This document shows, one piece after another, positions 1-21,389 of a stretch of 64,000 bases of DNA. The notes beneath the pieces were generated by a model, which was not told the DNA's origin, ran no database searches, and saw only the letters and a list, made by a program, of their open reading frames with translations. Each line of letters starts with the position of its first letter. Position 1 is the stretch's first letter. The DNA is from a virus: positions 1 to 64,000 of IMG/VR virus record IMGVR_UViG_3300027850_000002. The stretch is one strand, 5' to 3'. A program made the position numbers and the translations under genes.

Positions 1-161
1 CCAAGGTCCACTTGGTCGAGCAGGTTCAACCAGTCCGTGTTGGGCTCGCACATCGGCGTCCACTGGTTCGGGTCACTACGACCTCGCACCTCTATCTCGT
101 AGTGGATGACGCCTGCGATGTCACGCTTCAGGTTGAAGCTGATACTCCACGTTACCGTCAT
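1..161 (-). CDS. Partial HCxxC microprotein, runs off left edge
   Basis: The first 53 codons of a gene whose 3' end lies beyond base 1. Its ATG overlaps the stop of the preceding gene as ATGA. The protein shows A-G-V-I-H-Y followed about 20 residues later by P-M-C-E-P. These match the G-x-V-H and central Cys of the small zinc-type family that fills this arm. The diagnostic CxxC would lie outside the window, so membership is inferred from the first half only. Function unknown. Confidence 0.55.
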   Translation of the reverse strand, partial: MTVTWSISFNLKRDIAGVIHYEIEVRGRSDPNQWTPMCEPNTDWLNLLDQVDL

Positions 162-481
162 CTCGCTAGACATTCGAAACACGTGACCACGCGAACAGGA
201 TCATCGGCCTTTCGATTCTGCACCGCATGGAACACTGTCCATGAATGTGTAACGCCCTGCTCGTCCGTCCACGACGACGGAACGATGCCCTTCTCACGCC
301 ACCAATTCGGATGGTACTCCGTGCGACGGATGCACTCGGCTCCGATCGCCTCCATCTCGGCATGCACGATGGGCGGATAGAGCGAGCCCACCATCGTGTT
401 GTACAGCTCAGTTCGTTGTTCGAAGCCTCGAAGGAGGCTCTCGTTGTCCCACTTCATCAAGTCTTCAGACACGAGGACCAT
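158..481 (-). CDS. HCxxC-type small protein, 107 aa
   Basis: Ends in V-V-T-C-F-E-C-L-A (C101, C104), preceded by D-E-Q-G-V-T-H-S (H79). The usual Cys between the His and the CxxC is missing; C50 lies upstream instead. Two ATGs are available (487 and 481). The second is chosen because AAGGAG sits 6 nt before it. The N-terminal 70 residues are longer than in most family members and resemble nothing I recognise. Probably a zinc-binding phage accessory protein of unknown role. Confidence 0.65.
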   Translation of the reverse strand: MVLVSEDLMKWDNESLLRGFEQRTELYNTMVGSLYPPIVHAEMEAIGAECIRRTEYHPNWWREKGIVPSSWTDEQGVTHSWTVFHAVQNRKADDPVRVVTCFECLAR

Positions 482-533
482 AAACATCTCCTTCCCCGAT
501 GGAACGTTGGTCCGCTCCGCGGATCATCGATCA

Positions 534-719
534 TCACACCCACGCGGCCATGCACCGCAGGCACGTCACCGTTCGTTCCTCTATCGTCTGGAACCGTCGG
601 TGAATGGGTTCATCGCAATCCCCGATGTCGATGTTGCACAAGGTCCACCACGTGTTGCCCCAAAGGTTCACGAGGTGAACGAGGCCTTCATCGATAAGAA
701 GTACAGGTTGAACTTTCAT
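534..719 (-). CDS. HCxxC microprotein, 61 aa
   Basis: E-G-L-V-H-L near the N-terminus (H15), W-T-L-C (C28), then V-T-C-L-R-C-M-A-A (C53, C56). A four-ligand H-C-C-C zinc site is the simplest reading. The start is fixed by an ATGA overlap with the preceding gene, and in-frame ATGs further upstream are ignored for that reason. Function unknown. Confidence 0.75.
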   Translation of the reverse strand: MKVQPVLLIDEGLVHLVNLWGNTWWTLCNIDIGDCDEPIHRRFQTIEERTVTCLRCMAAWV

Positions 720-898
720 GACAATGGCACTTTGAAGAACGTGTCGTAGTAGATACGTGCGAGGCACGTCGGTGCATCACGGATGAGCTGCGTGTCTCTA
801 TCCGGTGCGTAGGGCCCGTAACACACCGGACGTGGGCCGAATGCTTTCATCTTCATGATGTGCACGAGCCCGTCGGAGCTTCGCCACTGTTGCTTCAT
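716..898 (-). CDS. HCxxC microprotein with broken CxxC, 60 aa
   Basis: D-G-L-V-H-I (H13) and P-V-C-Y-G (C26) are intact, but the end reads P-T-C-L-A-R: the second Cys of CxxC is Arg (codon CGT), which should weaken any metal site. Start chosen at the ATG overlapping the neighbour's stop (ATGA). The gene still forms part of the translationally coupled chain, so it may be decaying or may work with three ligands. Confidence 0.65.
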   Translation of the reverse strand: MKQQWRSSDGLVHIMKMKAFGPRPVCYGPYAPDRDTQLIRDAPTCLARIYYDTFFKVPLS

Positions 899-1077
899 GG
901 CCGTCGCATCCGCGTCGCAATGCACCACAGACATGTCGGCATGTCTTTGCTCAAGGCCTCACCTTCCTTGGGGTGGCGCTTCGAGTAGCAGATGGGCCAC
1001 ACGACGGACGGGTTGCGCCCTATAACCAGCATCGTCTCCACGATGTGGACGATGTCCTCGTGATCGCGCCACGTCAC
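895..1077 (-). CDS. HCxxC microprotein, 60 aa
   Basis: E-D-I-V-H-I (H11), W-P-I-C-Y (C30) and M-P-T-C-L-W-C-I-A (C49, C52). The start is a GTG overlapping the previous stop (GTGA); a second GTG one codon upstream is possible. A basic C-terminal tail (T-R-M-R-R-P) follows the CxxC. Function unknown. Confidence 0.75.
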   Translation of the reverse strand: MTWRDHEDIVHIVETMLVIGRNPSVVWPICYSKRHPKEGEALSKDMPTCLWCIATRMRRP

Positions 1078-1289
1078 CACTTGATGATCCCCGGTTCGCC
1101 ATCCTTACGAATGAGACCTGAATCGAAACGGTCGAACGAGTCCGCAATGCACCACAGACACGTCGGAACCGCGATGATCACGCGGTCGGGTGGCGGTCGG
1201 TAGTGACCCGTGCACGCCATCACAAATGAACCCCCGAGCAAGATGTGCACGAGACCATCACCGTCGATCCAGAAAAGTTCTGTGGTCAC
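1074..1289 (-). CDS. HCxxC microprotein, 71 aa
   Basis: G-D-G-L-V-H-I (H15), M-A-C-T-G (C26), V-P-T-C-L-W-C-I-A-D (C44, C47), then a charged tail of about 20 residues. The GTG start overlaps the upstream stop as GTGA. Predicted metal-binding small protein; role unknown. Confidence 0.75.
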   Translation of the reverse strand: MTTELFWIDGDGLVHILLGGSFVMACTGHYRPPPDRVIIAVPTCLWCIADSFDRFDSGLIRKDGEPGIIKW

Positions 1290-1483
1290 AGCGCGTCTAC
1301 CTTGGCGATGCACTGCAGACATGTGAGGACGACGTTAGCCCCGACCAGCTTGAACATGGAGCGGGTCCGAAGCGCGTAGCCTGACGTCGAGCATATGGTG
1401 TACGTATCCCACGTAACGTCGTCAGGGCCGAGGTGGACGAGACTGTTGTCGTCAACCCACTGTGCGTAACCGCTCAGGGTCAT
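1286..1483 (-). CDS. HCxxC microprotein heading a run of seven, 65 aa
   Basis: N-S-L-V-H-L (H17), Y-T-I-C-S (C31), V-L-T-C-L-Q-C-I-A-K (C55, C58). It has its own ribosome binding site (GAAAGGT) before the ATG and is first in a chain of overlapping family genes running leftwards to base 1. Its promoter should lie in the divergent gap 1484-1672, where a minus-strand CATAAACATC element sits 38 nt upstream. Confidence 0.75.
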   Translation of the reverse strand: MTLSGYAQWVDDNSLVHLGPDDVTWDTYTICSTSGYALRTRSMFKLVGANVVLTCLQCIAKVDAL

Positions 1484-1672
1484 AGTGTACCTTTCACACT
1501 GGTTTGTAGGGTATCCCCTAGATGTTTATGAAATAAGCACACGGTCGTCGGCATCGTGCAAATTTGACACATACGTAGAAAGCGCGAGACGCCGGCGCTC
1601 GGTTGGTTTACCCCATAAACAAGATTGTCAAGACCCTTGCAGTCCTAAAGAGGGATCTGCACAGTCGTCCTA
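1484..1672. promoter_or_regulatory. Divergent intergenic region with two ATAAAC elements
   Basis: This 189-nt gap separates the leftward microprotein run from the rightward response-regulator gene. It holds CATAAACATC on the minus strand (1521-1530) and CCCCATAAACAAG on the plus strand (1611-1623). The latter sits in an inverted repeat GTTTA-ccccA-TAAAC. Similar RTAAAC elements precede other lead genes in the window. A TTGACA occurs at 1564 but has no good -10 partner. Promoter role is inferred. Confidence 0.4.
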
Positions 1673-2221: not shown

Positions 2222-2224
2222 ACA

Positions 2225-2646
2225 TCACGCGGAGAAACGTTCGATGGTGCGGCTGTACGCACGCATCAGACGCGGCGAGACAGTGATGGCCTTGATGCGG
2301 CGCAGGGCCATTGCCTTCGACGTCACGATGCTCTTTTGCTGACCTTCGGATTGGTAGCCAGCATCTTCGATGCCCCACCACACACTGTTGATGAGGGGCA
2401 CGAGCGGGATCTTCAGGACGTCGAACTGTAGACGGATGACCCGCAGCTCGTGAAGTTGCGCTCGGCCGCAGGTCATGGTTTCGAGGCACATGTTCATGTC
2501 CTCGATGTCATCCTTGCGTTTGCATGGCGGCTTTCGAAACAGCACGACGTAGTGCGCCAGCTCGTGGAGGCAGTAGTCGAGGTCTCCACTGGACCCGCGC
2601 TGCGTGTCGATTCTGTTGAAGTTGATGACGAGGTTGGTTTCGTTCA
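2225..2646 (-). CDS. HExxH-containing small putative metalloprotease-like protein
   Basis: The 140-residue product has C-L-H-E-L-A-H-Y-V-V around residue 30, the zinc-binding HExxH motif. No downstream third ligand is obvious. Start is the ATG in an ATGA overlap with the neighbour. It is the last gene of its leftward run and ends 3 nt from the oppositely oriented response-regulator gene. It could be a small metallopeptidase or a chance HExxH in a phage hypothetical protein. Confidence 0.6.
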
Positions 2647-2856
2647 TGGTGGATTCACAACCGAGAGACACCACAAACACGTCACAGGCGTGTCGGGCGG
2701 TAAGTCGAGGGGCTTCGTAGCGATCTCAGGACCAAAGTCCAAACACAGGCGATACCACACAGCGTCATCTATGATTTCATACTTCCACAGTACATGGACG
2801 ATACCGTTTACATCGATGACGCGCGCGTGCACGAGGGTGTAGTTTGGTTCACCCAT
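2644..2856 (-). CDS. HCxxC microprotein, 70 aa
   Basis: V-N-G-I-V-H-V (H21), Y-R-L-C-L (C38), P-V-T-C-L-W-C-L-S (C60, C63). The ATG overlaps the upstream stop by 8 nt. Aromatic residues flank the His. Function unknown. Confidence 0.75.
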   Translation of the reverse strand: MGEPNYTLVHARVIDVNGIVHVLWKYEIIDDAVWYRLCLDFGPEIATKPLDLPPDTPVTCLWCLSVVNPP

Positions 2857-3031
2857 CGCGAGCCACGCATTGCAGGCACGTTGCAAGCATGTAGGGCGGT
2901 TTCGGTCTGACCCACTTCTCGCCATGGCAATCGCCGCCACACAGGAAGTAGAACAACATACCGTTGTAGCCACGGTCCACGTGCTCTCGCACGACGTGCA
3001 CAAGGTTATTTTTGCGGTCGAAGAGTGTCAT
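2849..3031 (-). CDS. HCxxC microprotein, 60 aa
   Basis: N-N-L-V-H-V (H12), Y-F-L-C-G-G-D-C (C31, C35), L-A-T-C-L-Q-C-V-A (C52, C55). Start by ATGA overlap with the preceding gene. The central part has an extra Cys. Function unknown. Confidence 0.75.
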   Translation of the reverse strand: MTLFDRKNNLVHVVREHVDRGYNGMLFYFLCGGDCHGEKWVRPKPPYMLATCLQCVARDG

Positions 3032-3228
3032 GGGTTTCTTTTCGCGATGCACTCGAAGCACGTGGGAACTGCATCAGCGCACCAGCGCCACGCGAGAATC
3101 GTGTCTTCGCTGGCGCATTCGACGTAGACCGTGCTGCCTAGATGTTCGTGCTCGGTCTGAGAGGCGATATGGACCAGTCCGTCCTTGCGCTCGAGACTGC
3201 GGATGCTTCGGTAGTGGACGTCGGTCAC
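3028..3228 (-). CDS. HCxxC microprotein, 66 aa
   Basis: K-D-G-L-V-H-I (H20), Y-V-E-C-A (C38), V-P-T-C-F-E-C-I-A-K (C57, C60), plus an additional Cys at 50. GTG start in a GTGA overlap. A basic segment precedes the motif. Function unknown. Confidence 0.75.
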   Translation of the reverse strand: MTDVHYRSIRSLERKDGLVHIASQTEHEHLGSTVYVECASEDTILAWRWCADAVPTCFECIAKRNP

Positions 3229-3416
3229 AGGTCGAACATCCGCCCCGGGCGGTTCCCTAGACACGTCAGGCACGTTGGAAACCCTTTCTCATTCACGGTC
3301 TGAAGAAAGACCTTGGGCGCGTTGCACAAAACGTCGTAGTTCCATGGCTGCATGGGATCGACGATTGCGATGTGAACGACGTGGTTGCGGTCCCTAACCA
3401 GGACCGACGCCGACAA
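3225..3416 (-). CDS. HCxxC microprotein, TTG start, 63 aa
   Basis: N-H-V-V-H-I (H15), D-V-L-C-N (C31), F-P-T-C-L-T-C-L-G (C49, C52). No ATG or GTG lies close to the motif; the nearest canonical start is TTG at 3416, giving a 23-nt overlap with the upstream gene. Start therefore less certain than the gene itself. Confidence 0.65.
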   Translation of the reverse strand: MSASVLVRDRNHVVHIAIVDPMQPWNYDVLCNAPKVFLQTVNEKGFPTCLTCLGNRPGRMFDL

Positions 3417-3738: not shown

Positions 3739-4051
3739 TATGTCGAAACGAACTACGCCCACATCTGAAGCCGTCTCCACACAAGGTCCCGAGACCACTC
3801 CGGATGTTGCAGAAAACCCGTTCCGTGCCGAGGCCGAGGCGAACATGGCCAAGATGGACCGGCTGCGTCTCGAGCACATCGCGCAGGAGCGCGGTGTCAC
3901 AGTCGCACAGCTGCTCGAGGCGGACGGGGCGCAGGCGCCCACCAAGCCCGCAGGTGACTCCCCTCGCAAGAAGGCTGTTACGGGCGTGCTGGAGGCTGTC
4001 GAGCATGTGAAGGAGTCGATTCGCGAATCCGAAAAACACGCACGGCACTAG
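3739..4051 (+). CDS. Hypothetical charged helical protein, 103 aa
   Basis: Mostly charged and Ala-rich with a central helix (residues 35-60) and a segment R-G-V-T-V-A-Q-L-L-E that could be one helix-turn-helix. No known domain recognised. Start at ATG 3739, 15 nt from the divergent gene. No strong ribosome binding site is seen. It ends in a 4-nt overlap with the convergent gene at 4048. Confidence 0.6.
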
Positions 4052-4323
4052 TCGTCATCGTCTTGATAGCTAGTGCCGTCTTCGTCAACGTCATCGAAGA
4101 GATCCCGTGACGGCGAATCGACGAACGTGAACCCGACGCACGTGAAGCAGGTGAGCACGGGCTCGTCTGTCACCTCAGCGTCTCGCACCACGCCGTCGTC
4201 GTGTTGGGGCGCGTACATACGGTCACTGCCGACACGCAACGCTGCGTGGATGAGTCCCTTGGAGCACTTCAGGTGCAGTACCGGGAACTTTGCGCCGTCG
4301 AGCGTGACGATGTCGCCGATCAG
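4048..4323 (-). CDS. HCxxC-related protein, probable CTG start, 91 aa
   Basis: Contains V-L-H-L-K-C-S-K-G-L-I-H-A (H17, C20, H26) and V-L-T-C-F-T-C-V-G (C59, C62), then an Asp-rich tail ending in D-D-D-D. A TTG at 4239 would cut off the His part. Upstream in frame the only plausible start is a CTG at 4323 that overlaps the previous stop as CTGA. This mirrors the ATGA, GTGA and TTGA junctions elsewhere in this arm. Start codon is an inference. Confidence 0.5.
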   Translation of the reverse strand: MIGDIVTLDGAKFPVLHLKCSKGLIHAALRVGSDRMYAPQHDDGVVRDAEVTDEPVLTCFTCVGFTFVDSPSRDLFDDVDEDGTSYQDDDD

Positions 4324-5195
4324 AATTCACCCAGCAGGCGACGAAACGCGTTGGTCAGCTGGTTTGCGTACCATTTGTAGTACGCCTGCTTGGTCCATCC
4401 ATCCTCGGGATCGTAGTTGTCCGCGAGCATGAAGCCCTGGTGGTCGACGTTGAAATGAACACCACGCTCGTTGACGTTCACTGACCAACGTTTGCCCTGT
4501 GGACATTCGCTACCTGCGAGTAGTGTTCTCTCGCGCGGCTTCGCTTTCAGGTGCGGCCTATATGCAAGCCAACCATCGACCGTCCAGTTGACGACCCACT
4601 TCTGCTTGGCGTCTGCCGCCCAGTCCGGCCCGATCAACTCACGCAGATGCTCTTCATCGGTGAGTCCAGGGTAGCGTGGCAAGTAGCCGAGCTTGGAAAT
4701 CAGCTCTTGGGTGAATTCCATCCAAGGCAGCCCGCCCTCGCGCGGTGCACTGTCATCGACGATGCACGCGTTGCAGCGAGATGTGCCTGTTGACTCGTGC
4801 ACGTGTTCCCACGGCAGCCCAGTCACGGCGTTGTAGAGCCACGGAGGCGATTTCTGCGTCGTTCCATGGTTGTCCGGATTCCGTGGGTATGTGGCCGCAT
4901 GGGGACGACTGATTTCAGCAACGTCCACGCACCACAATCCACATAGATCGCATTGCTCGTGGTCGGGCGTGCGGGGCTCGGTCGGCGCCTTTCGCTTTGC
5001 CTTGTTCGCCGCGTTCGCGCTCTTGTAGCTCTCGCGCTTCGGCTTCTTCGCTGGCACACAGATACATGGCGGCGTTCCGTCATGGATGGCACGACGTGCC
5101 TTGCACTTTACTTCAACGCGATCGTAGTGCCCCTCTCCCTGTGGGATCGATACGTATTGACGCTTGCGCGTCGTCTTCTTTTTCTTAGGTGTCAT
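4320..5195 (-). CDS. Hypothetical protein with basic N-terminus and Cys pairs, 291 aa
   Basis: Begins M-T-P-K-K-K-K-T-T-R-K-R. Two Cys clusters follow: C-I-C near residue 45 and C-D-L-C-G-L-W-C near residue 85, plus C-N-A-C further on, suggesting zinc binding. The C-terminal half is rich in Trp and Tyr. Start chosen at the ATG overlapping the upstream gene by 11 nt. Not a family I recognise; a nucleic-acid-binding role would fit the basic end. Confidence 0.65.
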   Translation of the reverse strand: MTPKKKKTTRKRQYVSIPQGEGHYDRVEVKCKARRAIHDGTPPCICVPAKKPKRESYKSANAANKAKRKAPTEPRTPDHEQCDLCGLWCVDVAEISRPHAATYPRNPDNHGTTQKSPPWLYNAVTGLPWEHVHESTGTSRCNACIVDDSAPREGGLPWMEFTQELISKLGYLPRYPGLTDEEHLRELIGPDWAADAKQKWVVNWTVDGWLAYRPHLKAKPRERTLLAGSECPQGKRWSVNVNERGVHFNVDHQGFMLADNYDPEDGWTKQAYYKWYANQLTNAFRRLLGEF

Positions 5196-6051: not shown

Positions 6052-6267
6052 TCAAGCGAGCGCACACACGAAGCACGTCGGAACACGGGGTTCTTTCGTC
6101 TTCGCAAAACTACGCGGAGAAATCGTTACGACGTAGACGGGTTCACACGGCAGGTACACAACCGTGGCCTTGCCAAACGATTCCCAGTCCGTGACAACGT
6201 GCACGAGCCCATCGCGCTCGAAGTAGCGACGCTTCTTGTTAGGGTCGAGAACGCGCGGGTTTTTCAC
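6052..6267 (-). CDS. HCxxC microprotein, 71 aa
   Basis: R-D-G-L-V-H-V (H23), Y-L-P-C-E (C41), V-P-T-C-F-V-C-A (C65, C68). GTG start in a GTGA overlap, with AGGG nearby. A basic stretch P-N-K-K-R-R-Y precedes the motif. Function unknown. Confidence 0.72.
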   Translation of the reverse strand: MKNPRVLDPNKKRRYFERDGLVHVVTDWESFGKATVVYLPCEPVYVVTISPRSFAKTKEPRVPTCFVCALA

Positions 6268-6453
6268 GGCCGCCCTTTTCGCCGATGTTCCGCGATGCAC
6301 CAGAAGCAGGTGGCCTCGGGCGCGTCATCGTCCGCGTGGCATTGGTTCAGGTAGAGCGCGTACTCCGAGAGACACCACGCGACTTTTGAGCCGTTTGCTA
6401 TCAGGTACCGCGTGATGTGCGATGCCGGTTGAATCGATCCATCGAATGACCAT
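6264..6453 (-). pseudogene. Frameshifted HCxxC microprotein
   Basis: From ATG 6453 one frame gives M-V-I-R-W-I-D-S-T-G-I-A-H-H and runs to a stop at 6325. The matching second half, V-A-W-C-L-S then E-A-T-C-F-W-C-I-A-E-H, lies in another frame that ends at 6264. Together they make one typical family member, so a single-base indel around 6370-6410 is likely. A long upstream extension of the second frame would cross the terminator at 6468-6498 and is not believed. A programmed shift cannot be excluded. Confidence 0.5.
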
Positions 6454-6467
6454 CGGCCTCCGTGTCG

Positions 6468-6498
6468 AAAAAAGAAGGCGCCGCATTCCTGCGACGCC
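6468..6498 (-). terminator. Rho-independent terminator, minus strand
   Basis: On the minus strand GGCGTCGC and GCGGCGCC form an 8-bp stem (one G-U pair) around a 6-nt loop, followed by TTCTTTTTT. It would end leftward transcripts coming through the non-coding array at 6505-7727, just before the microprotein genes at 6453 and below. Confidence 0.75.
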
Positions 6499-6548
6499 TC
6501 CAGTATAGCCCCTCCAGTGATCACTAGACCAATCCGCTCACAGCGTTT

Positions 6549-7681
6549 CCAATGCAGCATATCCAGTCATTCGCATGCACGTCCTCACCTCCGTCGTCCG
6601 TTCTATCACCGCGTTTCCAGTCATCCCCGCCACCATGCATGACCATTCCTTTGGCGTTACCGCCATTGTTTCCCGTTTAACACCCATCCAATCACCCCAA
6701 ACCCATTGCAGCCATTCCGGTGCGGTGTGCTCCCATCAGAGCCAAGCCTTCACGGCCCGTTCCGGTGCAGCCATACCATTGCTCTCCGAAGCATTGAATG
6801 CCCCGAGTTTCCCCTGCAGCTGTCCCCCTGTATCGTAGCCCTAACATCACCCGTGCACGCCTATGCGGCCCTACATCTCCAGTGCTTTCCTTCGACGCCT
6901 ACCGTAGGCCGCTCCGCTCCAATGCCGCCGTTCCTTTATCTTGCGGACCACTCGACGCCTCACGCTTCCTATGCAGCCATTCCTAACCGCCTACTTTCCC
7001 CACGCCTCCGTGCCCCACCTGTGACCTCGCCGCCTCTGCAGCTTCTCCACTCGTCACAGTGCCAACCATCACCCGACATTTCCTTTGCAGCCTTTCCGAT
7101 GTGCTCCACGCGAGACAAGTCCTACGTTGTCCACTGCCGCCGGTCCGTTGCCGCCCCGCCCTCTCCACGCGCATCGCACCTAGTCCATAGTACGCTTCGC
7201 GCACCCGCCCCAATGCTGCCTTTCCATCCCTCAACTTTCACTACCTATCAGGTCATTTCCGGTGCTGCCGTTCCAATGCGTCCACTTCATATCCCATGAC
7301 GTCCTGTCGCAATGCGGCAAGTCCGCCCGGCACCACTGCTCGCTCTTCCTCACGCAACCTATACAGCCTATCCACTCCACGCAGTTGACGTCGCACCCTT
7401 ACACCTCATCCACGCTCCACTGCCGCCCTCGCAATCGCGCCCTTCGACTCCTTACATCCACAATCCGATGCAGCATCTCCATTAAGATCCAACACGGTCC
7501 TGACCCATCAGGTCCGGTCGCCTCCCCTGCCGCCACTCACTCAAAAAACAACCCGCAAATCGAATCCATTGCTCTCCGATGCGATCGTTTCCTCACCCTT
7601 CAGAACCAACCCCACGCCGCCTATCCAATGACGTCCGGTGAAGATCGAACCAGCCTAGACGTTCCCTCTGCAGCCACTCAC
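6549..7681. repeat. Ladder of degenerate 16-bp motifs in a 1.2-kb non-coding region
   Basis: No gene is supported between 6505 and 7727. The plus strand is pyrimidine-rich and carries the motif CC-NN-TGC-N-GCC-N-TTCC again and again. Taking the TGC as anchor, copies start near 6707, 6766, 6815, 6864, 6923, 6972, 7037, 7086, 7135, 7214, 7263, 7313, 7362, 7421, 7469, 7528, 7580 and 7629, plus looser ones at 6553, 6636 and 7669. Steps are mostly 49 or 59 nt. Half-copies 14 nt after a main copy occur at 6721, 7149 and 7277. The sequence between motifs is not conserved. The minus-strand terminator at 6468-6498 lies at the left end. Confidence 0.7.
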
Positions 7682-7727
7682 CCTCACGCCGCGTTGCTGT
7701 CGAGGCAACGAAGCGTAAAGCCGCTGG

Positions 7728-9370: not shown

Positions 9371-9562
9371 CTATGGCGCAAGCTTAGGAACGGCCGACGT
9401 CGCGTTTTCACGGGCGATGCATGCAAGACACGTCACGAGCTTTGGTTCGAGGTCGATGACGACAGGCGCCTCGTCTTGCCAGGTACGGATCCACTCGCAC
9501 CACTCGTTGCTTACGTAGTGGACGAGACCTCCTGTATCCGTACATGTCACCAAGGTTTCCAC
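9371..9562 (-). CDS. HCxxC microprotein, 63 aa
   Basis: T-G-G-L-V-H-Y (H15), E-W-C-E-W (C22), L-V-T-C-L-A-C-I-A-R (C45, C48). The spacing from His to central Cys is unusually short. GTG start at 9562 overlaps the preceding gene by 16 nt. Function unknown. Confidence 0.72.
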   Translation of the reverse strand: METLVTCTDTGGLVHYVSNEWCEWIRTWQDEAPVVIDLEPKLVTCLACIARENATSAVPKLAP

Positions 9563-9711
9563 AATCGACTAATAACGCACCAGAAACAGGTAGGGAAGCG
9601 CGCAGACCCTTGCTCGGGTACGCCATCCATCCGCTTGTTGCAACACGTCCAGTCGGGGAACCGTTTCGTAACAACGTGAACTACGCCTTCATGATCAGTG
9701 TACGTAGTCAC
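9547..9711 (-). CDS. HCxxC microprotein, 54 aa
   Basis: H-E-G-V-V-H-V-V (H12), D-W-T-C-C-N (C23, C24), F-P-T-C-F-W-C-V-I (C42, C45). The smallest complete member. GTG start at 9711 overlaps the end of the gene upstream by 17 nt. Found by reading the gap directly. Confidence 0.7.
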   Translation of the reverse strand: MTTYTDHEGVVHVVTKRFPDWTCCNKRMDGVPEQGSARFPTCFWCVISRLWKPW

Positions 9712-10240
9712 GCAGGTCTTCCTTAGCGAGGCACTGCAGACACGTGATCATGACTTGGTCGCGGACCAACTGAAGCTTGGCGTACCGCTCGGTGGTCATC
9801 TCGTTGACGTAAAGTAGGCGTCCGTTGCGTTCACAAAGAGGGTAGAGGTCAAGAGGCTTCCGCGCATGGACGATCCCGGCTACGTCAGCCATTGGGACGG
9901 CCCCTGCCCGAAAGTCTTGGACGATGAGCTTTCCCCTGCGTGTCAGCGTACGTTCGTGGTCAACGTAATCAGATTTGACCAATCGTTCGAGGGCTCCTCG
10001 ACTCAATGAGAATGTTTCCCCTCGTGCATTCGTTTCTAGCCACAACCGTGCACGCGAGGACATCGTGAGCGGGTTGTCCATCTTCAAACAACCCGGACAC
10101 GTTGGCGTCTTGTCACTGCGTTCACCTGTGTCGTAGTACGAACCGCACAAAGTCCAAACAGGGCCGGCGGCCTTCTGCGTCTTGGTCTCGTGGATGACGT
10201 GCCAGACGTACCCACGTTTAACCTTATAGGTTGTCTTCAT
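9695..10240 (-). CDS. Double HCxxC-module protein, 181 aa
   Basis: Two complete modules in one chain. Module 1 has Y-V-W-H-V (H14), W-T-L-C-G (C32) and P-T-C-P-G-C-L (C48, C51). Module 2 has A-G-I-V-H-A (H125), Y-P-L-C-E (C136) and I-T-C-L-Q-C-L-A (C167, C170). Between them a basic helical segment (residues 62-110) could form a winged-helix-like linker. AAGGAG 9 nt before the ATG and an ATGA overlap fix the start. Module 1 ends in CxxCLK rather than CxxCIA and looks like the least derived copy. Confidence 0.78.
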   Translation of the reverse strand: MKTTYKVKRGYVWHVIHETKTQKAAGPVWTLCGSYYDTGERSDKTPTCPGCLKMDNPLTMSSRARLWLETNARGETFSLSRGALERLVKSDYVDHERTLTRRGKLIVQDFRAGAVPMADVAGIVHARKPLDLYPLCERNGRLLYVNEMTTERYAKLQLVRDQVMITCLQCLAKEDLRDYVH

Positions 10241-10458
10241 GGTTCTGCGCTCCTTGCCAGACACGCGAAACATGTGGTTGGTGGAGGTGTTGTTACAACG
10301 AAACAGACTTCGTCGATCGTTCCACCGTTGTGTGAGAACGCTTCGATGATGTCAGGGTCTATAGTGAACAGAATTTCGCACACCGTCTTGCCCCAGTGAT
10401 CTTCATCCTCGGGCCGGAACTGTACGTGCGCGAGTCCGTCATCTGTCTTGATGAGCAC
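10237..10458 (-). CDS. HCxxC microprotein, 73 aa
   Basis: D-D-G-L-A-H-V (H11), K-T-V-C-E (C27), T-T-C-F-A-C-L-A-R (C63, C66) and an extra Cys at 52. GTG start, one base after the previous stop. Function unknown. Confidence 0.74.
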   Translation of the reverse strand: MLIKTDDGLAHVQFRPEDEDHWGKTVCEILFTIDPDIIEAFSHNGGTIDEVCFVVTTPPPTTCFACLARSAEP

Positions 10459-10459
10459 G

Positions 10460-10663
10460 TTACAACGGGCCTTTATCTAGCTCGCGATCCACCATCGCGA
10501 TGCATTGGATGCACATGGGGAACTGTCCAGGTTCTGGCTTGAACGAGCTGTTGAGGTATTGCTCTTTGCCGCAGACGAGGAGGATGCCTCGCATCTCGTA
10601 CTTCCAATGTGTGACACCGTAGTTGTCGGTGAAAAGTGTGATGTTGTGTACCGGCCTATCCAT
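10460..10663 (-). CDS. HCxxC microprotein, 67 aa
   Basis: N-Y-G-V-T-H-W (H19), L-L-V-C-G-K (C31), F-P-M-C-I-Q-C-I-A (C51, C54). The Thr before the CxxC is Met here. ATG overlaps the previous gene by 8 nt. Function unknown. Confidence 0.74.
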   Translation of the reverse strand: MDRPVHNITLFTDNYGVTHWKYEMRGILLVCGKEQYLNSSFKPEPGQFPMCIQCIAMVDRELDKGPL

Positions 10664-10838
10664 GCTTGAAGTTCCCGATGCACAAGAGGCACGTTAGGAT
10701 TTTGTCGCCGCCGAAGTATTTGGCCCCGATGATCGACTGCCCACACGCGGCCCAGATCGCATCCTTGTAGATGACGTGCTTCAAGCCGTCTTGGCCCATG
10801 TAGTAGCGGTCGAATGTCCAGGTTTTACGGCGTGCCAT
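10656..10838 (-). CDS. HCxxC microprotein, 60 aa
   Basis: Q-D-G-L-K-H-V (H21), A-A-C-G-Q (C32), I-L-T-C-L-L-C-I-G (C50, C53). The central C-G pair resembles module 1 of the double-module protein. ATG start three bases after the preceding micro-ORF. Function unknown. Confidence 0.74.
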   Translation of the reverse strand: MARRKTWTFDRYYMGQDGLKHVIYKDAIWAACGQSIIGAKYFGGDKILTCLLCIGNFKHG

Positions 10839-10919: not shown

Positions 10920-11159
10920 ATGCGACGTTTACCCGATAATCTCGTGCCCGCCATGAAGCCCCTTTGCTTCTATTCCATGTTCTCGGCTGAGCAGTGCCCC
11001 AAGGCTCTGGCTTGGATGGCAGCGCTTTGCGCTTCCACGGGACGCGGACATGACGCTGAGCAGTGGCTGATCGAGCTGATCGAGTCGGTGCTGTTCACCC
11101 ACCAGAACGTCGTTCGGCCGACCGAGATTGCGCTGCGAGACACTGCAAGCATGTCGTGA
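10920..11159 (+). CDS. Small protein paralogous to the response-regulator leader domain
   Basis: Plus-strand gene inside a minus-strand block, 79 aa from ATG 10920 (or 68 aa from ATG 10953). C-P-K-A-L-A-W-M-A-A-L then A-E-Q-W-L-I-E-L-I-E-S-V-L-F aligns without gaps over 34 residues with the N-terminal extension of the receiver protein at 1673, about 11 identities by eye. So the domain exists alone and fused to CheY. Its 3' end overlaps the convergent gene at 11095 by 65 nt. Start uncertain. Confidence 0.5.
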   Translation: MRRLPDNLVPAMKPLCFYSMFSAEQCPKALAWMAALCASTGRGHDAEQWLIELIESVLFTHQNVVRPTEIALRDTASMS

Positions 11160-11310
11160 TCTTCCGACGGGTTGGCTCGAGCTGCGCTGACGGCCAGATG
11201 GAAACTTCGCCAGCGCCCTCATAGTTTTCGCAGGCGGTCACACGTACACCCAGCTCATGGTCTTGTGCATCGTGCACGAGCCCGTCGGGGTCTAGGTAGC
11301 GGCGAGGCAT
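11095..11310 (-). CDS. HCxxC microprotein, 71 aa
   Basis: P-D-G-L-V-H-D (H13), V-T-A-C-E (C27), I-T-T-C-L-Q-C-L-A-A (C54, C57), then a 12-residue Arg/Ser tail lying opposite the end of the plus-strand gene. ATG start 19 nt inside the upstream gene. Function unknown. Confidence 0.72.
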   Translation of the reverse strand: MPRRYLDPDGLVHDAQDHELGVRVTACENYEGAGEVSIWPSAQLEPTRRKITTCLQCLAAQSRSAERRSGG

Positions 11311-11489
11311 TGAAGACAGGTCACGGGTTGGTGAAAGACTTCTTCCATGTCCCGCATGTTGAGGTCAAACCCGCCGACGTCATCGGCTTCGCAGACCATG
11401 AGCGAGTTGGCTCCAAAGCTCCCACCGCAGACGTGAACGAGGCCTTTTCGGTCCCGGAACGTCTGTGGTTCACGCTTTTTCCACGTCAT
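11292..11489 (-). CDS. HCxxC microprotein, 65 aa
   Basis: R-K-G-L-V-H-V-C (H19, C21), L-M-V-C-E (C33), P-V-T-C-L-Q-C-L-A (C58, C61). ATG in an ATGA overlap with the upstream gene. Basic N-terminus. Function unknown. Confidence 0.74.
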   Translation of the reverse strand: MTWKKREPQTFRDRKGLVHVCGGSFGANSLMVCEADDVGGFDLNMRDMEEVFHQPVTCLQCLAAT

Positions 11490-11869
11490 GCACCCGCCTC
11501 CGCGATGCACCAGAAGCAGTAGACGGGGTCGTGCTCCCAGATCGCGTGGTCGTTGACGATCTCCTCGAGTTCGCCGGCTAGTTCCGTCAGGGCCGTGTGC
11601 ACCATGTCGTCGTAGTAACCGCCGCCCGCCATGAAGCTTTGCCTCGACTCGTACGCACATCCGCCGAGGTAGTCACTGCACGTAATGCCTTTGTACGTGG
11701 CCGACACTTTGACAATGCACCACGCCCATTCGTTGCCGCGAGCAAGCTGATCCCGAATCCACTCCACACATGTTGGGTCGTCAAACTCTCCAACATAGCT
11801 TCGGTCCTCGGGTTCGACGAAAAGTTTGACTGCCGCGACCTTTTTCAGCTTCTCTAGGTCGATCTTCAT
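11486..11869 (-). CDS. Hypothetical protein with CxxC end, 127 aa
   Basis: Ends H-D-P-V-Y-C-F-W-C-I-A-E-A, like the microprotein C-terminus, and has D-D-M-V-H-T in the middle, but the layout is different: C-I-V-K, I-T-C-S-D and G-G-C-A lie before the His. It may be a diverged relative fused to an N-terminal helical domain. ATG in an ATGA overlap. Function unknown. Confidence 0.65.
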   Translation of the reverse strand: MKIDLEKLKKVAAVKLFVEPEDRSYVGEFDDPTCVEWIRDQLARGNEWAWCIVKVSATYKGITCSDYLGGCAYESRQSFMAGGGYYDDMVHTALTELAGELEEIVNDHAIWEHDPVYCFWCIAEAGA

Positions 11870-12078
11870 CGTCCTTGCCACCGTTCTTCGACGATGCGAA
11901 CGGCGTCGTCCTGGTCCGCGGCGTCGCCCCATCCACCGCGAGCGTCTCGCCATCGCCATGCAGGCCCGGTCCCCCGGTTCACAGGCTCGAAGTTCTTGAA
12001 TTCGACTTCGCCGGTGACGACACCGTCGATCACAACCTCGGCGCACATGGTGCCGGGCTTCTTACGCAGCTCAGTCAT
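11866..12078 (-). CDS. Hypothetical protein, 70 aa
   Basis: M-T-E-L-R-K-K-P-G-T-M-C-A-E-V-V-I-D-G-V then a Trp/Arg-rich region and an acidic end. No CxxC. AAAGGA before the ATG, which also overlaps the upstream stop (ATGA). No known domain. Confidence 0.62.
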   Translation of the reverse strand: MTELRKKPGTMCAEVVIDGVVTGEVEFKNFEPVNRGTGPAWRWRDARGGWGDAADQDDAVRIVEERWQGR

Positions 12079-12500
12079 GGTTTTCCTTTCGCCCAATAGG
12101 CGATGCAGTCGAAGCACGTGACGGCTTCGACCTGCGGTCGTCGTCCGACAGCCGTTTCGATTCCGCATGAGAATTGAAACGTCGGATCCGCCCACGAGAT
12201 GCACTTGAACGCTTGATGGACAGTACCCTCGTGTTCGACGAGCATCTTCTCGCCGTTGTTGTAGTCTCTCGCGCGGACGGTTTGCTGCTCGCGGTCCTTC
12301 GTGATGATGTCTTCCGTTTCCTCGGACGCATACCAACCACGTTCCCGATCTTCGAGGTCGACGACTTCTTCTTCGTTGTACGGATTGATCTGGACGGCAC
12401 CACAGTGGCGGCATACGGCCGCAGTCACTTGTTGCATGCCGACGCCATTGTCGACGTACTCCGCGTCTGTATCACGCGAGCCGCACCAACCGCAGGTCAC
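12075..12500 (-). CDS. Zinc ribbon fused to an HCxxC module, 141 aa
   Basis: Residues 2-34 form a four-Cys ribbon (C-G-W-C-G and C-R-H-C-G). Residues 90-136 are a microprotein module: E-G-T-V-H-Q (H95), F-S-C-G-I (C112), A-V-T-C-F-D-C-I-A (C129, C132). An acidic linker joins them. The GTG at 12500 overlaps the upstream stop as GTGA; a GTG at 12521 is an alternative. Confidence 0.7.
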   Translation of the reverse strand: MTCGWCGSRDTDAEYVDNGVGMQQVTAAVCRHCGAVQINPYNEEEVVDLEDRERGWYASEETEDIITKDREQQTVRARDYNNGEKMLVEHEGTVHQAFKCISWADPTFQFSCGIETAVGRRPQVEAVTCFDCIAYWAKGKP

Positions 12501-12745
12501 CACTGGATGCAGGTCAGGCACGTGATTGACGGTGCGACCTCAAGCGAGCCGGGGTCGCCACTGTTGATCGCGCGGCAGGGGCACATGAAGTTGAGGTACG
12601 CAACGCCTTGCGCGACGTTCCACTCAACATTGTACACTGCCGTAATGACCAACATGTGTCCAAGTCCATCAGGTCCGATGACGATCTCGTGATCGCCGAC
12701 CTTGGGCAGTGTGCGTGCCTGCGCCAGGACTTCGTTGAGCTTCAT
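12497..12745 (-). CDS. HCxxC microprotein with helical leader, 82 aa
   Basis: P-D-G-L-G-H-M (H30), N-F-M-C-P-C (C55, C57), S-I-T-C-L-T-C-I-Q-W (C76, C79). The first 20 residues are a helix not seen in shorter members. ATG in an ATGA overlap. Function unknown. Confidence 0.73.
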   Translation of the reverse strand: MKLNEVLAQARTLPKVGDHEIVIGPDGLGHMLVITAVYNVEWNVAQGVAYLNFMCPCRAINSGDPGSLEVAPSITCLTCIQW

Positions 12746-16692: not shown

Positions 16693-16868
16693 GGCTTCTT
16701 TTTGAACTCCTTGAGACCGTAGTGGAGACGGACTTTTTCAACGGCAGTCGCTGTTTTGGGGTCACGTCCGTTGAGACGGTCCGGGTCGTACGACAACGTC
16801 ATGTCCATCGCCAGGTCGTACAGCGCCTGGAGCGCCTTGAGTGGTGTGTATGCATTCCGACTCTTCAT
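16689..16868 (-). CDS. Hypothetical protein, 59 aa
   Basis: L-K-A-L-Q-A-L-Y-D-L-A-M-D-M helix and a basic end K-E-F-K-K-K-P. ATG overlaps the stop of the endonuclease-like gene (ATGA). No recognised family. Confidence 0.55.
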   Translation of the reverse strand: MKSRNAYTPLKALQALYDLAMDMTLSYDPDRLNGRDPKTATAVEKVRLHYGLKEFKKKP

Positions 16869-17509
16869 TTTATCTTTCGTACAGGTGTTGTGAATGCCCG
16901 GTCCACAGGCCACCCACGTGAAACGATACGACGGTGCAATTCTTTGTAGGGCAGTTTGAGTACGGCGGCCCAGTCCAAGAGGAGCTTCCTTTGTCCTTGG
17001 TAGGAAACGAAACGGTTGTTTCGTTTGTTACGAGCTTGCGTCGAACGCGTCGCCCAGACGCAGTTGGAGGGTGAATAGTCCAACTTGTTCTTCTTGCGTT
17101 CAATCGAATGATTGACAGTAGGCGGTTCTTTCATATCACTAATAAAACGTTCGAATCCGCCTAAACCTTGCCAACGTTTGCAAACCCGTATTCCACGTCC
17201 ACCGTAACGTTCCCAGTTTGAGCACGTTTTGTCAGAGCACCGCTGAAGCATTGCTCTGTAAACCGCGTACAAACGGTCCCTTGATCTCCCGTGTGTCGTA
17301 TTTACTTCACTCGTGCGTTCTCGATTCAAACATTTGCACGACTGAATCTGACCACCTATCAAGTGAGACGAGCGCACATTGACAGTGTCCCCGCAAATAC
17401 ACCGACAAACCCACATGATTTTCCCGTTGGTCCGTTGCCCAGAGTCACGAAGCACCGTTAACCGACCGAACTTTTGACCCTTCAAATCGATTGCACGGTT
17501 ACTTCGCAT
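16865..17509 (-). CDS. HNH/homing-endonuclease-like protein, 214 aa
   Basis: The N-terminal module (about 60 aa) has D-L-K-G-Q-K-F-G-R-L-T-V, W-V-C-R-C-I-C-G and I-Q-S-C-K-C-L, a Cys-rich fold shared with the endonuclease at 57659. The C-terminal part has Y-G-G-R-G-I-R-V-C-K-R-W and S-I-E-R-K-K-N, Y-S-P-S-N-C-V-W-A-T, typical of phage homing endonuclease-like proteins. Likely a selfish insertion between dcd and small genes. ATG 17509 with AAAGA upstream. Confidence 0.78.
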   Translation of the reverse strand: MRSNRAIDLKGQKFGRLTVLRDSGQRTNGKIMWVCRCICGDTVNVRSSHLIGGQIQSCKCLNRERTSEVNTTHGRSRDRLYAVYRAMLQRCSDKTCSNWERYGGRGIRVCKRWQGLGGFERFISDMKEPPTVNHSIERKKNKLDYSPSNCVWATRSTQARNKRNNRFVSYQGQRKLLLDWAAVLKLPYKELHRRIVSRGWPVDRAFTTPVRKIK

Positions 17510-17517
17510 TGGTCTTT

Positions 17518-18105
17518 CTATTTGTGAAAGTTCATCCACATGCGACTAGCCTGTGGTCTTGGATCACGTCCGTCGCGGTATTTAGCGTTCGGTTTGCTGT
17601 CGTAACCCTGTTCCGGCGCCCCGGTTTCAAAGTAGATGAGTTGCCCGATAGGCATGCCTGCGTAGACTCGGACAGGTTGGACGACATGTATTTCAAGAGT
17701 CCAATGACCTTTGTATAATACATCGCCACGTCCCGCAGTACAGTGGATCGTGATTCCGAGCCGCCCGATACTGCTTTTCCCGTCGAGGAAGGGAACGTGC
17801 TTGAGGCTCTCGGTGTACTCGCTCGTCGAGCCGAGATAGAGCGTGCCCGGAATCAGCACGATTCCATCCGTCCCGATTTCGTATGCGTGCGTTTCATGCT
17901 CGACTTTGCAGTCGAGCAGTCGGGGCACCAGGTTCGGCGTCGTGCGGCCTTCGTTGATGTCGGGATAGCCTGTGGCGTACGTCAGGATTGTTGACCCTAA
18001 GTGCACGTCGTACGAGTTGCTTCCAAGTGCACTTGGGTCAAACGGGTCGATAACGATGTCACCCTTCGCCATCGCCTCCTTGATCATCTTGTCGCTTAGG
18101 ATCAT
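17518..18105 (-). CDS. dcd: dCTP deaminase / dUTPase-family protein
   Basis: 195 aa. Catalyses deamination of dCTP to dUTP (known of the family), feeding dTMP synthesis with the ThyX-like enzyme encoded at 27.6 kb. Seen: I-L-S-D-K-M-I-K near the start, G-S-N-S-Y-D-V-H-L-G, D-G-K-S-S-I-G-R-L-G-I (conserved Ser/Arg loop), A-G-x-G-D region and W-T-L-E-I with the catalytic-type Glu, then A-G-M-P-I-G-Q-L. Length fits bacterial Dcd. Overlapped by 47 nt with the gene upstream and followed directly by an endonuclease gene. Confidence 0.88.
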   Translation of the reverse strand: MILSDKMIKEAMAKGDIVIDPFDPSALGSNSYDVHLGSTILTYATGYPDINEGRTTPNLVPRLLDCKVEHETHAYEIGTDGIVLIPGTLYLGSTSEYTESLKHVPFLDGKSSIGRLGITIHCTAGRGDVLYKGHWTLEIHVVQPVRVYAGMPIGQLIYFETGAPEQGYDSKPNAKYRDGRDPRPQASRMWMNFHK

Positions 18106-18295: not shown

Positions 18296-18579
18296 CAGCG
18301 TCGGGTGGGTTTGGTGGTCGCGTTACGTACGAGCCACGTTTCAACGAGGTCGTCGACGGTTTTGAGGATGTCCTTGTCCTCGTTGGCAAGCACGATGGTC
18401 GCTTCCAGCGCCACATCATCCATACGGGCTTTGACGCGGTACTGGTAAGCCGTGTAGCCGAGGACCAGCACGCCGACGTCGCACTTGTCGGGGAACACGA
18501 ATCCCTTGATGCGCTCGACGTCGAGCGAACGCCTGACCTGGTCTCCGAACTTCTGGGTCACTTCTTCTTTGTTGAGCAT
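18295..18579 (-). CDS. Hypothetical protein, 94 aa
   Basis: M-L-N-K-E-E-V-T-Q-K-F-G, then alternating strands (F-V-F-P-D-K-C-D-V-G-V-L-V-L) and an acidic helix. GGAAGGA before the ATG. No recognised family. Confidence 0.65.
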   Translation of the reverse strand: MLNKEEVTQKFGDQVRRSLDVERIKGFVFPDKCDVGVLVLGYTAYQYRVKARMDDVALEATIVLANEDKDILKTVDDLVETWLVRNATTKPTRR

Positions 18580-18809
18580 CGATAGTCCTTCCCAAACGCG
18601 TCGACAATGAGGCACTCCGTACAGGTTGGAGGACCTGGTGTGATTCGATTTTGGCTGCCGGGGTTCAGCTTGGCGTGACGACCACATGCAAGCTCCGCTT
18701 GGCGATTGGGGTCGAGTCCCACGCCGTTTGCGTCGATCCGAACGTCTTGTTCGAATCCGGACCAGCTGAGCCAGCGCAGGACGATGTGAACGCCGTCGTG
18801 ACGTTTCAT
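18558..18809 (-). CDS. HCxxC protein, 83 aa
   Basis: R-H-D-G-V-H-I-V (H8), L-A-C-G-R-H (C42), P-P-T-C-T-E-C-L-I-V (C63, C66), Lys tail. The C-G and C-x-x-C-L pairs resemble the less derived module at 9695. ATG in an ATGA overlap; an earlier in-frame ATG at 18845 is disfavoured. Confidence 0.72.
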   Translation of the reverse strand: MKRHDGVHIVLRWLSWSGFEQDVRIDANGVGLDPNRQAELACGRHAKLNPGSQNRITPGPPTCTECLIVDAFGKDYRCSTKKK

Positions 18810-19060
18810 GTACCAGGGAGGCCGCGCGACAGACAAAACAGACATGTGACGACCTCCTTGGTTGGGGTTCCGTTTGACGGGTCTTGCATCCAGAGCCCGC
18901 GTTCGCGGCATGTGAAGCGTAGGTTCAACGGCAACACTGAGCGTGGAGCGTCGACAGCCTTGCGCAGTGAGAATTCAACAGGAACCCGTTCTCCCACGAT
19001 GTCCCAAGCCTCAGTGACGATATGGACGACTCCATCCGGATCTTGAAACCGTCGGCTCAC
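18806..19060 (-). CDS. HCxxC protein, 84 aa
   Basis: P-D-G-V-V-H-I-V (H13), R-F-T-C-R-E (C51), V-V-T-C-L-F-C-L-S (C73, C76). The His-to-Cys loop is the longest in the family (38 residues). GTG start in a GTGA overlap. Function unknown. Confidence 0.72.
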   Translation of the reverse strand: MSRRFQDPDGVVHIVTEAWDIVGERVPVEFSLRKAVDAPRSVLPLNLRFTCRERGLWMQDPSNGTPTKEVVTCLFCLSRGLPGT

Positions 19061-19545: not shown

Positions 19546-19601
19546 CCTCTTTCTTCGGCGAGAGGCGCAGAGCCCCAACACCAGATTGTTTCGATGTTCA
19601 T
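19536..19601 (-). CDS. Possible 21-residue micro-ORF
   Basis: ATG reads M-N-I-E-T-I-W-C-W-G-S-A-P-L-A-E-E-R and stops just inside the next gene's start region. No ribosome binding site. Fills the only gap between the flanking genes, so it may be real; low support. Confidence 0.25.
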   Translation of the reverse strand: MNIETIWCWGSAPLAEERGWF

Positions 19602-19620
19602 CGGCTTGCGCCGCGGACCG

Positions 19621-19968
19621 TCATGGCGTCTTCGCCGTCCGGTTGATACAGCCCATGTGGGCGTAGGTCGACCGCGTCTCATCGAACCGTTGGATCTGTG
19701 TCACGTGGCTCGCGCTCGGCCCTTGGTCGAGGGGCAGCCTGCAGACCGGACAGGTCTCGGGCTTCTCCCAAATCTCGCTTCGGTCGAGCGGGACGGGACG
19801 CAGCTTGACGTCGAACTTGCGCAGCACGGCATCGATGCAGCCCCGTAGGTCCGAGTGGCTTTGCGGATAGTTGAGGTCGGCGCGCCACTCATGGAGACCG
19901 GCGATCATCGTCTCCATCAGGTCACTCGCGAGTGTTGAGAACGGTTCGCGGAGAAACGGCTTAGGCAT
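19621..19968 (-). CDS. Hypothetical protein with Cys/His cluster, 115 aa
   Basis: A helical N-terminal half, then E-T-C-P-V-C-R-L-P and A-S-H, Y-A-H-M-G-C-I near the end, a likely C-C-H-C zinc site. ATG in a TAATG overlap with the HNH remnant. Function unknown. Confidence 0.6.
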   Translation of the reverse strand: MPKPFLREPFSTLASDLMETMIAGLHEWRADLNYPQSHSDLRGCIDAVLRKFDVKLRPVPLDRSEIWEKPETCPVCRLPLDQGPSASHVTQIQRFDETRSTYAHMGCINRTAKTP

Positions 19969-20285
19969 TAAATGTGTTTCCACTGTTTCCGGTTAACGAT
20001 GAGCGTCACCTGTTTTTGACTGACGCCAAAACGTACCGCGAGCACACGGTGTAGCGCGCCATTGGCGTGCGTCTTACGCATCGCGATTACTTGCGGTGCT
20101 GTTAGCTTGGACATTCCACTACGTTCTCCGAGGGGCGGATTTCCTCGGCCCTTACGAAGCATGTCCAGACAATTGTCTCGAGTGGTACCTTTGAACAAGT
20201 GTTTAAGGTTCACACACCATGGATTGTCACACGTATGAAGTGCCTTTTTGTTCCCTAAAGGTCCATGACGCAGTTCCCACATCAC
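19968..20285 (-). pseudogene. HNH endonuclease, N-terminally truncated
   Basis: Keeps the second half of a phage HNH homing endonuclease: A-H-R-V-M-W-E-L (partly before the first start codon), L-H-T-C-D-N-P-W-C-V-N-L-K-H-L, G-T-T-R-D-N-C-L-D-M-L and a C-terminal helix-turn-helix (V-L-A-V-R-F-G-V-S-Q-K-Q-V). The frame upstream is closed by a stop and joins a mazG-like fragment. A GTG at 20285 overlapping that stop (GTGA) could still start it. Probably inactive. Confidence 0.6.
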
Positions 20286-20470
20286 ACGGTGGGCCAGACC
20301 ATGTCCTGTAGTTCACCCGCTTCTGTGCAGATGCCGATCATGCCGTGGAGGAGTCGCGCGAGCATGCGGTCCTGGTCACTCAACACGGTCTCGGTTGAAG
20401 CGGATGTGTTGACGAAATTCGGTGTCTTCTCCGAACGGAGTCAATCCTGTTGAAATTCATTTGGCGTCAT
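20282..20470 (-). pseudogene. mazG: mazG-like fragment with one in-frame UGA
   Basis: From ATG 20470: M-T-P-N-E-F-Q-Q-D, UGA (20441-20443), L-R-S-E-K-T-P-N-F-V, then R-L-L-H-G-M-I-G-I-C-T-E-A-G-E-L-Q-D-M-V and a stop. L-L-H-x-x-x-G-x-x-T-E-A-G-E is the metal-binding helix of MazG-type nucleotide pyrophosphohydrolases. The second half of the domain is missing, replaced by the HNH remnant. Both the UGA and the truncation argue for a dead gene. Confidence 0.55.
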
Positions 20471-20517
20471 CGAAGCCTGATACCATAACGAGACCCCAAT
20501 TCGTTAACGAGATAAAC

Positions 20518-20934
20518 CTACGTTCGACGCCAGTGTTCCAGTATCAGCTGTTCGAACGCCCTTGTTGTTGCAGCATCGGCACCTGCGTCCCGCAGCACCC
20601 GTGCGATCTCCTCGACGGGAACGCATTTGGGGTTGTCGTAGAGCTGATGGAACTTTTCATTCCAGCCAACCAGTGGCTCGAACGTCACGCTAGCTCCCTT
20701 GAGCTTTTCGCAAACGCCTTTGCACTCGTCGCAGAGCGACATCGCGCCTTTGCGTCCGTCCTTGCCCGCTTCTGCTTCACGGGCGTACCAGGTCGGTTTA
20801 TTGGTACAGCGACCCCAACGTCCGCCGACGTCCCCGCCCATGATCCACGGGTTGTACGCTGATTTCACGTCCGCTTGGCAGCGTGCGTGATCGACGGACT
20901 CGAGTGGCGCGAGCTGGTTCGTAGCCTTGGTCAT
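20518..20934 (-). CDS. Hypothetical Cys-containing protein, 138 aa
   Basis: H-A-R-C-Q-A-D-V, G-R-C-T-N-K-P-T-W-Y and S-L-C-D-E-C-K-G-V-C form a zinc-type site in the first 70 residues. The rest is helical. ATG in an ATGA overlap. No family recognised. Confidence 0.65.
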   Translation of the reverse strand: MTKATNQLAPLESVDHARCQADVKSAYNPWIMGGDVGGRWGRCTNKPTWYAREAEAGKDGRKGAMSLCDECKGVCEKLKGASVTFEPLVGWNEKFHQLYDNPKCVPVEEIARVLRDAGADAATTRAFEQLILEHWRRT

Positions 20935-21389
20935 GTGAGTCCTCGCAGCTTGGCCTCGACGTTGAGCACTTCGAGCCATTCCTTCCAGTCCTTCTTGAAC
21001 TCGCCCTCGTCACGCGTCAGCTTCGCGATGGAGTTGCGCAAGTGTTGTTCGTCCATCTCGAACACATAGAGCTTGCGACCGTCCTTGGTCTCCCACTTCC
21101 CGAGCCGCACGGTCTCCTCTCGGATGTAGCCCGGCACGCACGCAGGACAGCCGCGGCAGATCACACATTTCATGCACGACGGACCGTCGTACACGACGAG
21201 CGTTGGACCGAAGTGAATCCTGCAGCAGGTCAGGTATGAATCCCCGCCCTCGAGCCACGCACACGTGTGAATCAGACCGTCGTCGAATTTGTGGAAGTCA
21301 CGCGCAACGTTGTAGGGTGGTTCGTAGTTGCCTGGAACGACGCTGTTGCGTGTTGTGTGCAACAGTCGACGAGACTTCGTCGCCGTCAT
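20931..21389 (-). CDS. HCxxC module with extra Cys cluster and helical tail, 152 aa
   Basis: F-D-D-G-L-I-H-T (H41), Y-L-T-C-C-R (C55, C56), then P-S-C-M-K-C-V-I-C-R-G-C-P-A-C (five Cys in 13 residues), replacing the simple CxxC. The C-terminal 60 residues are charged helices. The cluster could hold two metals. ATG start near a short gap. Confidence 0.65.
   Translation of the reverse strand: MTATKSRRLLHTTRNSVVPGNYEPPYNVARDFHKFDDGLIHTCAWLEGGDSYLTCCRIHFGPTLVVYDGPSCMKCVICRGCPACVPGYIREETVRLGKWETKDGRKLYVFEMDEQHLRNSIAKLTRDEGEFKKDWKEWLEVLNVEAKLRGLT

Follow-up and report, generated by a model that had tools for sequence, protein, structure and literature searches.

A lineage-wide family of H-C-CxxC microproteins in one accessory block of an uncultured phage: possibly a set of separate zinc-held binders

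What could a phage do with several dozen diverged copies of one small protein, most of them carrying a single His and three Cys and nearly all crowded into one part of the genome? The question arises from the window, by which we mean the whole analysed stretch of 64,000 bases, that is, bases 1-64000 of a virus record of 175,415 bases, the remainder of which was read as loci L002-L007. The first-pass annotation claimed about 28 paralogues at the left side of this window, and that number holds. A profile (HMM) built from the clear window members and iterated, with regex scans run alongside, yields 26 domains in 25 genes, all of them minus-strand and lying at 158-21404; three weaker cases, namely 4048-4326, 11486-12046 and an ORF that is cut by the left edge of the window and has a fuller match in contig G015, raise the total to approximately 28. 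The final profile produced 0 matches per run in triplet-shuffled genomes and 0 matches on the plus strand. The same window-member profile unites the copies as one homologous family that is found also in the contigs of relatives. The individual features are as follows.

158-481, minus: member without the central Cys (VTHSW...VTCFECLAR); HMM; species B orthologue 61% identical
534-719, minus: H-C-CxxC member, 4-bp overlap with upstream gene; HMM 1.5e-14
716-898, minus: degenerate member, last Cys lost (TCLAR; CLAR); HMM 6.5e-5
895-1077, minus: H-C-CxxC member; HMM 2e-18
1074-1289, minus: H-C-CxxC member; HMM 2e-12; species B orthologue
1286-1483, minus: H-C-CxxC member heading the first operon; HMM 8e-16; AlphaFold pLDDT 77
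2644-2856, minus: H-C-CxxC member, start provisional; HMM 5e-14
2849-3031, minus: H-C-CxxC member; HMM 1e-15
3028-3228, minus: H-C-CxxC member; HMM 1.5e-16
3225-3416, minus: H-C-CxxC member; HMM 1e-15
4048-4326, minus: weak member without the central Cys (GLIH...LTCFTC), start provisional; regex, HMM 0.015
6052-6267, minus: H-C-CxxC member; HMM 1e-14
6264-6560, minus: weak member, C-terminal ATCFWCIA, no recognisable GxxH; HMM 2e-4 with the broad profile
9371-9550, minus: H-C-CxxC member; HMM 4e-12
9547-9711, minus: shortest H-C-CxxC member (54 aa), AlphaFold-modelled, strongly conserved in species B and D; HMM 6e-18; orthologue 72% identical, dN/dS 0.11
9695-10240, minus: two H-C-CxxC domains in one protein; HMM 2e-13 and 6e-11
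10237-10458, minus: H-C-CxxC member; HMM 6e-15
10460-10663, minus: H-C-CxxC member; HMM 2e-16
10656-10838, minus: H-C-CxxC member, operon head; HMM 3e-14
11095-11310, minus: H-C-CxxC member; HMM 3e-16
11292-11489, minus: H-C-CxxC member; HMM 4e-16
11486-12046, minus: possible remnant, an orphan protein keeping only the C-terminal CFWC (CFWCIAEAGA), start provisional; HMM 0.19
12075-12500, minus: CxxC...CxxC stretch at the N-terminus, then an H-C-CxxC domain; HMM 2e-11; orthologue 78% identical
12497-12745, minus: H-C-CxxC member; HMM 2e-9; orthologues in species B, C and E
18558-18845, minus: divergent H-C-CxxC member; HMM 0.079; species B reciprocal best match
18806-19060, minus: H-C-CxxC member with a long first loop; HMM 3e-13
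20931-21404, minus: longer protein with a variant domain (GLIH...CC...CMKC); regex; orthologue 55% identical

Pfam scans of the longer family members detected no partner domain. The head-to-tail coupled runs were also described correctly, coordinates included: among the 29 adjacent pairs in the genome, 22 have the next ATG or GTG in frame exactly 3 bases into the upstream stop, which makes a 4-bp overlap. The chance expectation for this exact overlap is about 1 in 60 by an arithmetic estimate, so that the runs have to be regarded as real, coupled operons. Two plus-strand genes lie among them. The gene at 1673-2221, which points away from the first operon, encodes a CheY-like response regulator receiver domain (Pfam Response_reg, 2e-18), and some of its N-terminal sequence is similar to the plus-strand protein at about 10951-11159 (repeat D7). 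The latter small protein (10951-11159; YSMFS-EQCPKALAWMAAL...DAEQWLVELI) lies next to the microprotein operon at 10656-10838 in divergent orientation, and species B, C, D and E have conserved it.

To what kind of genome do these operons belong? The record codes for a phage terminase, a DNA polymerase, a primase and a relative of tail-sheath proteins, and therefore appears to represent a contractile-tailed phage, a large and uncultured bacterial virus. The terminase shares approximately 29% identity with its counterparts in Salmonella phage Arash and Vibrio phage D69; megablast with an 8.8 kb structural stretch matched no named phage, and a search of bacterial genomes with the terminase and the ribonucleotide reductase found no host. 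The large terminase subunit itself (892 aa; L002:5045-7720, record 69045-71720), which several relatives match over about 1610 bp, has its domain split by an insert, possibly an intein, with a weak PHROG match to a thymidylate synthase family at 143-236.

The family does not end with the window. Across the whole genome the final profile finds 43 domains, including a second set at 156-166 kb of the record, so that the expansion is larger than was noted from the window, the count there being right. The 134 kb core contains a single match, at 63997-64158, which has counterparts in relatives; the other 42 lie in one block. The window portion of this block was initially taken for an accessory arm, a terminal reading that we reject given that contig G015 (36 kb, same species, 99.9% identical) bridges the last and first bases of the record: it covers 160,819 to the record end, adds 227 bases not present in the record and continues from base 1 as far as 21,582. 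The equivalent part of species B is unbroken, a single stretch at 25-71 kb. The joined ends in G015 and the unbroken species B region mean that the genome map is either circular or permuted and that the family occupies one accessory block of about 41 kb, of which the window holds half.

A plus-strand run at 166-175 kb is also inside the block, and the other block proteins tested are mostly orphans. By eye, this run resembles tail-fibre genes, a resemblance that could be taken to suggest that the small proteins are accessory virion or assembly components. We consider such a role improbable, given that the minus-strand operons lie apart from the conserved head and tail genes and that the copy number varies among relatives.

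So how old is the expansion? Relatives were found via baseplate, terminase and block proteins, with several contigs representing the same species (B: G009, G010 and G002; C: G006 and G007; D: G011; E: G004; F: G005; the present species is A), and the family is present in species B, C, D, E, F and others. With the iterated profile, the three best-covered species have 43 (A), 46 (B) and about 78 (C) copies; species D has 28 on partial data, and fewer are seen on fragments. Paralogues within species A are at most about 38% identical over their length, whereas in the comparison of A with B most copies can be paired as reciprocal best matches, 30-78% identical and following the same order; roughly a quarter have no partner. 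Since orthologues at such identity levels are collinear, most of the duplications predate the split of these species, and the retention of order and identity implies that duplication is old and that each copy has been maintained separately. Sequence comparison thus depicts a mostly ancient expansion with conserved order rather than a recent burst; in species C, the best match of 34 of the 78 copies lies within C itself, which suggests further expansion in that lineage. Furthermore, the length of the second loop is kept between orthologues (median difference 0, versus 6 for non-orthologues), and this, together with collinearity, indicates that the copies are not interchangeable.

Non-interchangeability bears on the notion that the copies form a metal or redox buffer, in which many Cys and His ligands would tie up zinc or neutralise oxidants in the infected cell. 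The idea is compatible with the four ligands conserved in each copy and with the large number of copies, but there is a single site per 55-80 residues, and mere dosage would require no distinct copies, yet sequence and loop length are specific to each copy and retained from one species to another; we regard buffering as very improbable.

Are the copies under selection at all, and if so, of what kind? Pooled over 26 orthologue pairs, dN is 0.41 and dS 1.57, giving dN/dS of about 0.26; most of the clear cases among core genes have 0.07-0.15, with 0.2-0.25 in some. The ligand (motif) segments show about 0.17 (dN 0.24, dS 1.43) and the loops about 0.25 (dN 0.43, dS 1.72; pN 0.33, pS 0.67). Among the pairs with a computable ratio, none exceeds 1, with dS near saturation. 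The family is constrained, then, and evolves moderately fast compared with the core; at this near-saturated dS, the pattern is one of purifying and not of positive selection. Diversifying selection in the loops was looked for and not found, and fast loop diversification is thus not supported.

These values also weigh on the null view that the copies are debris left by non-adaptive duplication, or else ORFs that a GC-rich genome yields by chance. The few degenerate copies (716-898, 11486-12046) are what one would expect of debris, as is an excess of amino-acid over silent differences in the family frames of two species A strains, which differ by about seven amino-acid and two synonymous changes, too few to weigh. 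The lack of matches in shuffled sequence or on the plus strand, the exact 4-bp overlaps and dN/dS of about 0.26 between species leave this view scarcely plausible. We have to conclude that this is a real, old, lineage-wide family of separately maintained paralogues in coupled operons.

What is held constant in these proteins? The His and the three Cys (H...C...CxxC) are kept in 295 of 310 domains across the lineage, a set that includes duplicate contigs of species B and C, while the remainder of the domain has diverged to about 16-20% column identity. The spacing from His to Cys is 6-61 (median 18) and that from Cys to CxxC 14-55 (median 21). The proposal that all four ligands stay is thus borne out for the great majority of domains, the exceptions in the window being 158-481, 716-898, 4048-4326 and 6264-6560. 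Two AlphaFold models of moderate confidence (pLDDT 77 and 79, from 24 and 44 sequences) agree on a pair of strands at the front, the second of which has the His close to its beginning, and on a helix that starts at CxxC; the second model also sets the central Cys in a turn that links two short strands. The predicted fold can be written E-E-(E-knuckle-E)-H, with C24 at the knuckle and C42/C45 at the start of the helix. A treble-clef-like zinc site would be expected to have this appearance, but the models contain no metal and Foldseek matched them to nothing significant. A shared topology is predicted. A common scaffold that is probably zinc-held, most likely with one zinc per domain, has good support.

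Could a known family provide further guidance? PHROGs gave no match below 0.018, NCBIfam and PDB sequences no credible match, PADLOC no match, Foldseek no significant match against solved and viral structures, and literature searches found no description of the present family. The best match to DUF3039 (PF11238), a small family of unknown function, reaches 18.3 bits at one place in the whole phage, short of the curated cut-off of 22.7; the member concerned resembles DUF3039 positions 24-51, whereas the other members scanned do not match. Compared with treble-clef and zinc-ribbon folds, the predicted domain would share the knuckle and the CxxC at the start of a helix but would differ in its single knuckle Cys and in a His contributed by the preceding strand. 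Occurrence as single genes in actinobacteria, which had been proposed, is confirmed for two Amycolatopsis plasmids, found by a consensus search and scoring 26-27 bits with the family profile (WP_123799281.1 and WP_219154750.1): these proteins have the same ligand pattern and motif (GTIHLVTGDWLPVCG...VTCVRC or VTCARC), but the search places them at one position per plasmid, in no array, and in actinobacterial hosts. Consensus tblastn against phages returned only Gordonia and mycobacterial matches with E of 1 or worse, which we take as chance, one genome of each having no profile match; phages Arash and D69, the nearest named phages by terminase, have no family member.

Nucleic-acid binding is common among zinc knuckles and treble-clef-like folds, and this counts for a competing reading, namely that the copies are nucleic-acid-binding regulators (transcription factors or structural DNA-binding proteins), with a different recognition site for each. 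The nearest precedent found points the same way: Bacillus phage G encodes about 35 zinc ribbons (e.g. YP_009015343.1), thought by the authors of that study to be transcription factors or DNA-binding proteins (PMC7824862). The likeness lies in a very large, lineage-specific expansion of small Cys-rich proteins in a large phage, and an expansion of this kind is indeed seen here (43, 46 and about 78 copies in species A, B and C). By sequence, however, the phage G family is an unrelated zinc ribbon. The window profile has no match in the whole phage G genome, nor did a broad profile find anything significant among 19 phage G proteins; gp32, gp34, gp35 and gp46, which we identify by inference with the published family, have CPIC followed by a second Cys pair and no comparable His, and several of them carry WKENDRYLAK in a C-terminal stretch. 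Moreover, the net charge of our domains averages 0 (range -12 to +12), and orthologues do not keep it (r 0.07); a variety of protein targets would suit this better than one shared surface for nucleic acid, and 43-78 regulators would be very many for genomes of this size. We therefore consider the regulatory reading rather unlikely.

The reading that we favour, and to which we give an even chance, is that the copies are diversified small binders built on a zinc scaffold and directed mainly against host or rival-phage proteins, in takeover or counter-defence. Under this hypothesis, the domain would consist of a pair of beta strands, a knuckle with its Cys and a helix with CxxC in its first turn, held together by one His and three Cys around, most likely, a single zinc ion; the zinc site would stand in for a hydrophobic core, so that the two loops would be free to vary in length and sequence. 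The copies, co-produced from the coupled operons, would act separately as inhibitors or adaptors, their targets being mainly proteins of the host or of rival phages during takeover or counter-defence. Retention of the ligands in 295 of 310 domains, the coupled operons, the collinear orthologues and the orphan-rich block are all compatible with this scheme. Against it stand the loops, where no dN/dS above 1 is seen, unlike the prediction of a strong arms race, though dS is near saturation, as well as the lack of a Foldseek match or of a match to any defence-system family. The use of separate small binders against host or rivals has moderate support as an inference. A more specific version, a repertoire of zinc-held microdomain effectors in which each of the 40 to almost 80 paralogues per genome would be kept for a target of its own in the host or a rival phage, is one we entertain tentatively. 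The original idea of diversified effectors survives in part, as separate binders: the homologous family, the H-C-CxxC core, the predicted shared topology and the maintained copies all stand, and rapid diversification of the loops has to be dropped.

If the copies are indeed separate binders, the phage would offer a natural library of small host-targeting proteins that share one scaffold, and with it a route to asking how a phage can maintain many effectors whose sequences do not change rapidly. None of the family databases searched names the H-C-CxxC family, which is a new one for annotators to name. In species C, it reaches nearly 80 domains in a phage of 188 kb, about twice the published copy number of the phage G zinc ribbons.

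Several further features deserve mention in their own right. Window 6541-7720 is a stretch of about 1.2 kb without a convincing gene, in which TGCAGC and CCATTCC words loosely recur and which has no blastn similarity to the available stretches of relatives; GC skew is about -0.27 between positions 6 and 8 kb of the window. The minus-strand genes at 16865-17539 and 57659-58225 look by eye like AP2/HNH-type homing endonucleases (GRLTV...WVCRCICG and similar), the protein of the former having no Pfam match. The species B block (G009, about 53-56 kb, L040) contains diverged repeats of 140-620 bp with 75-84% identity.
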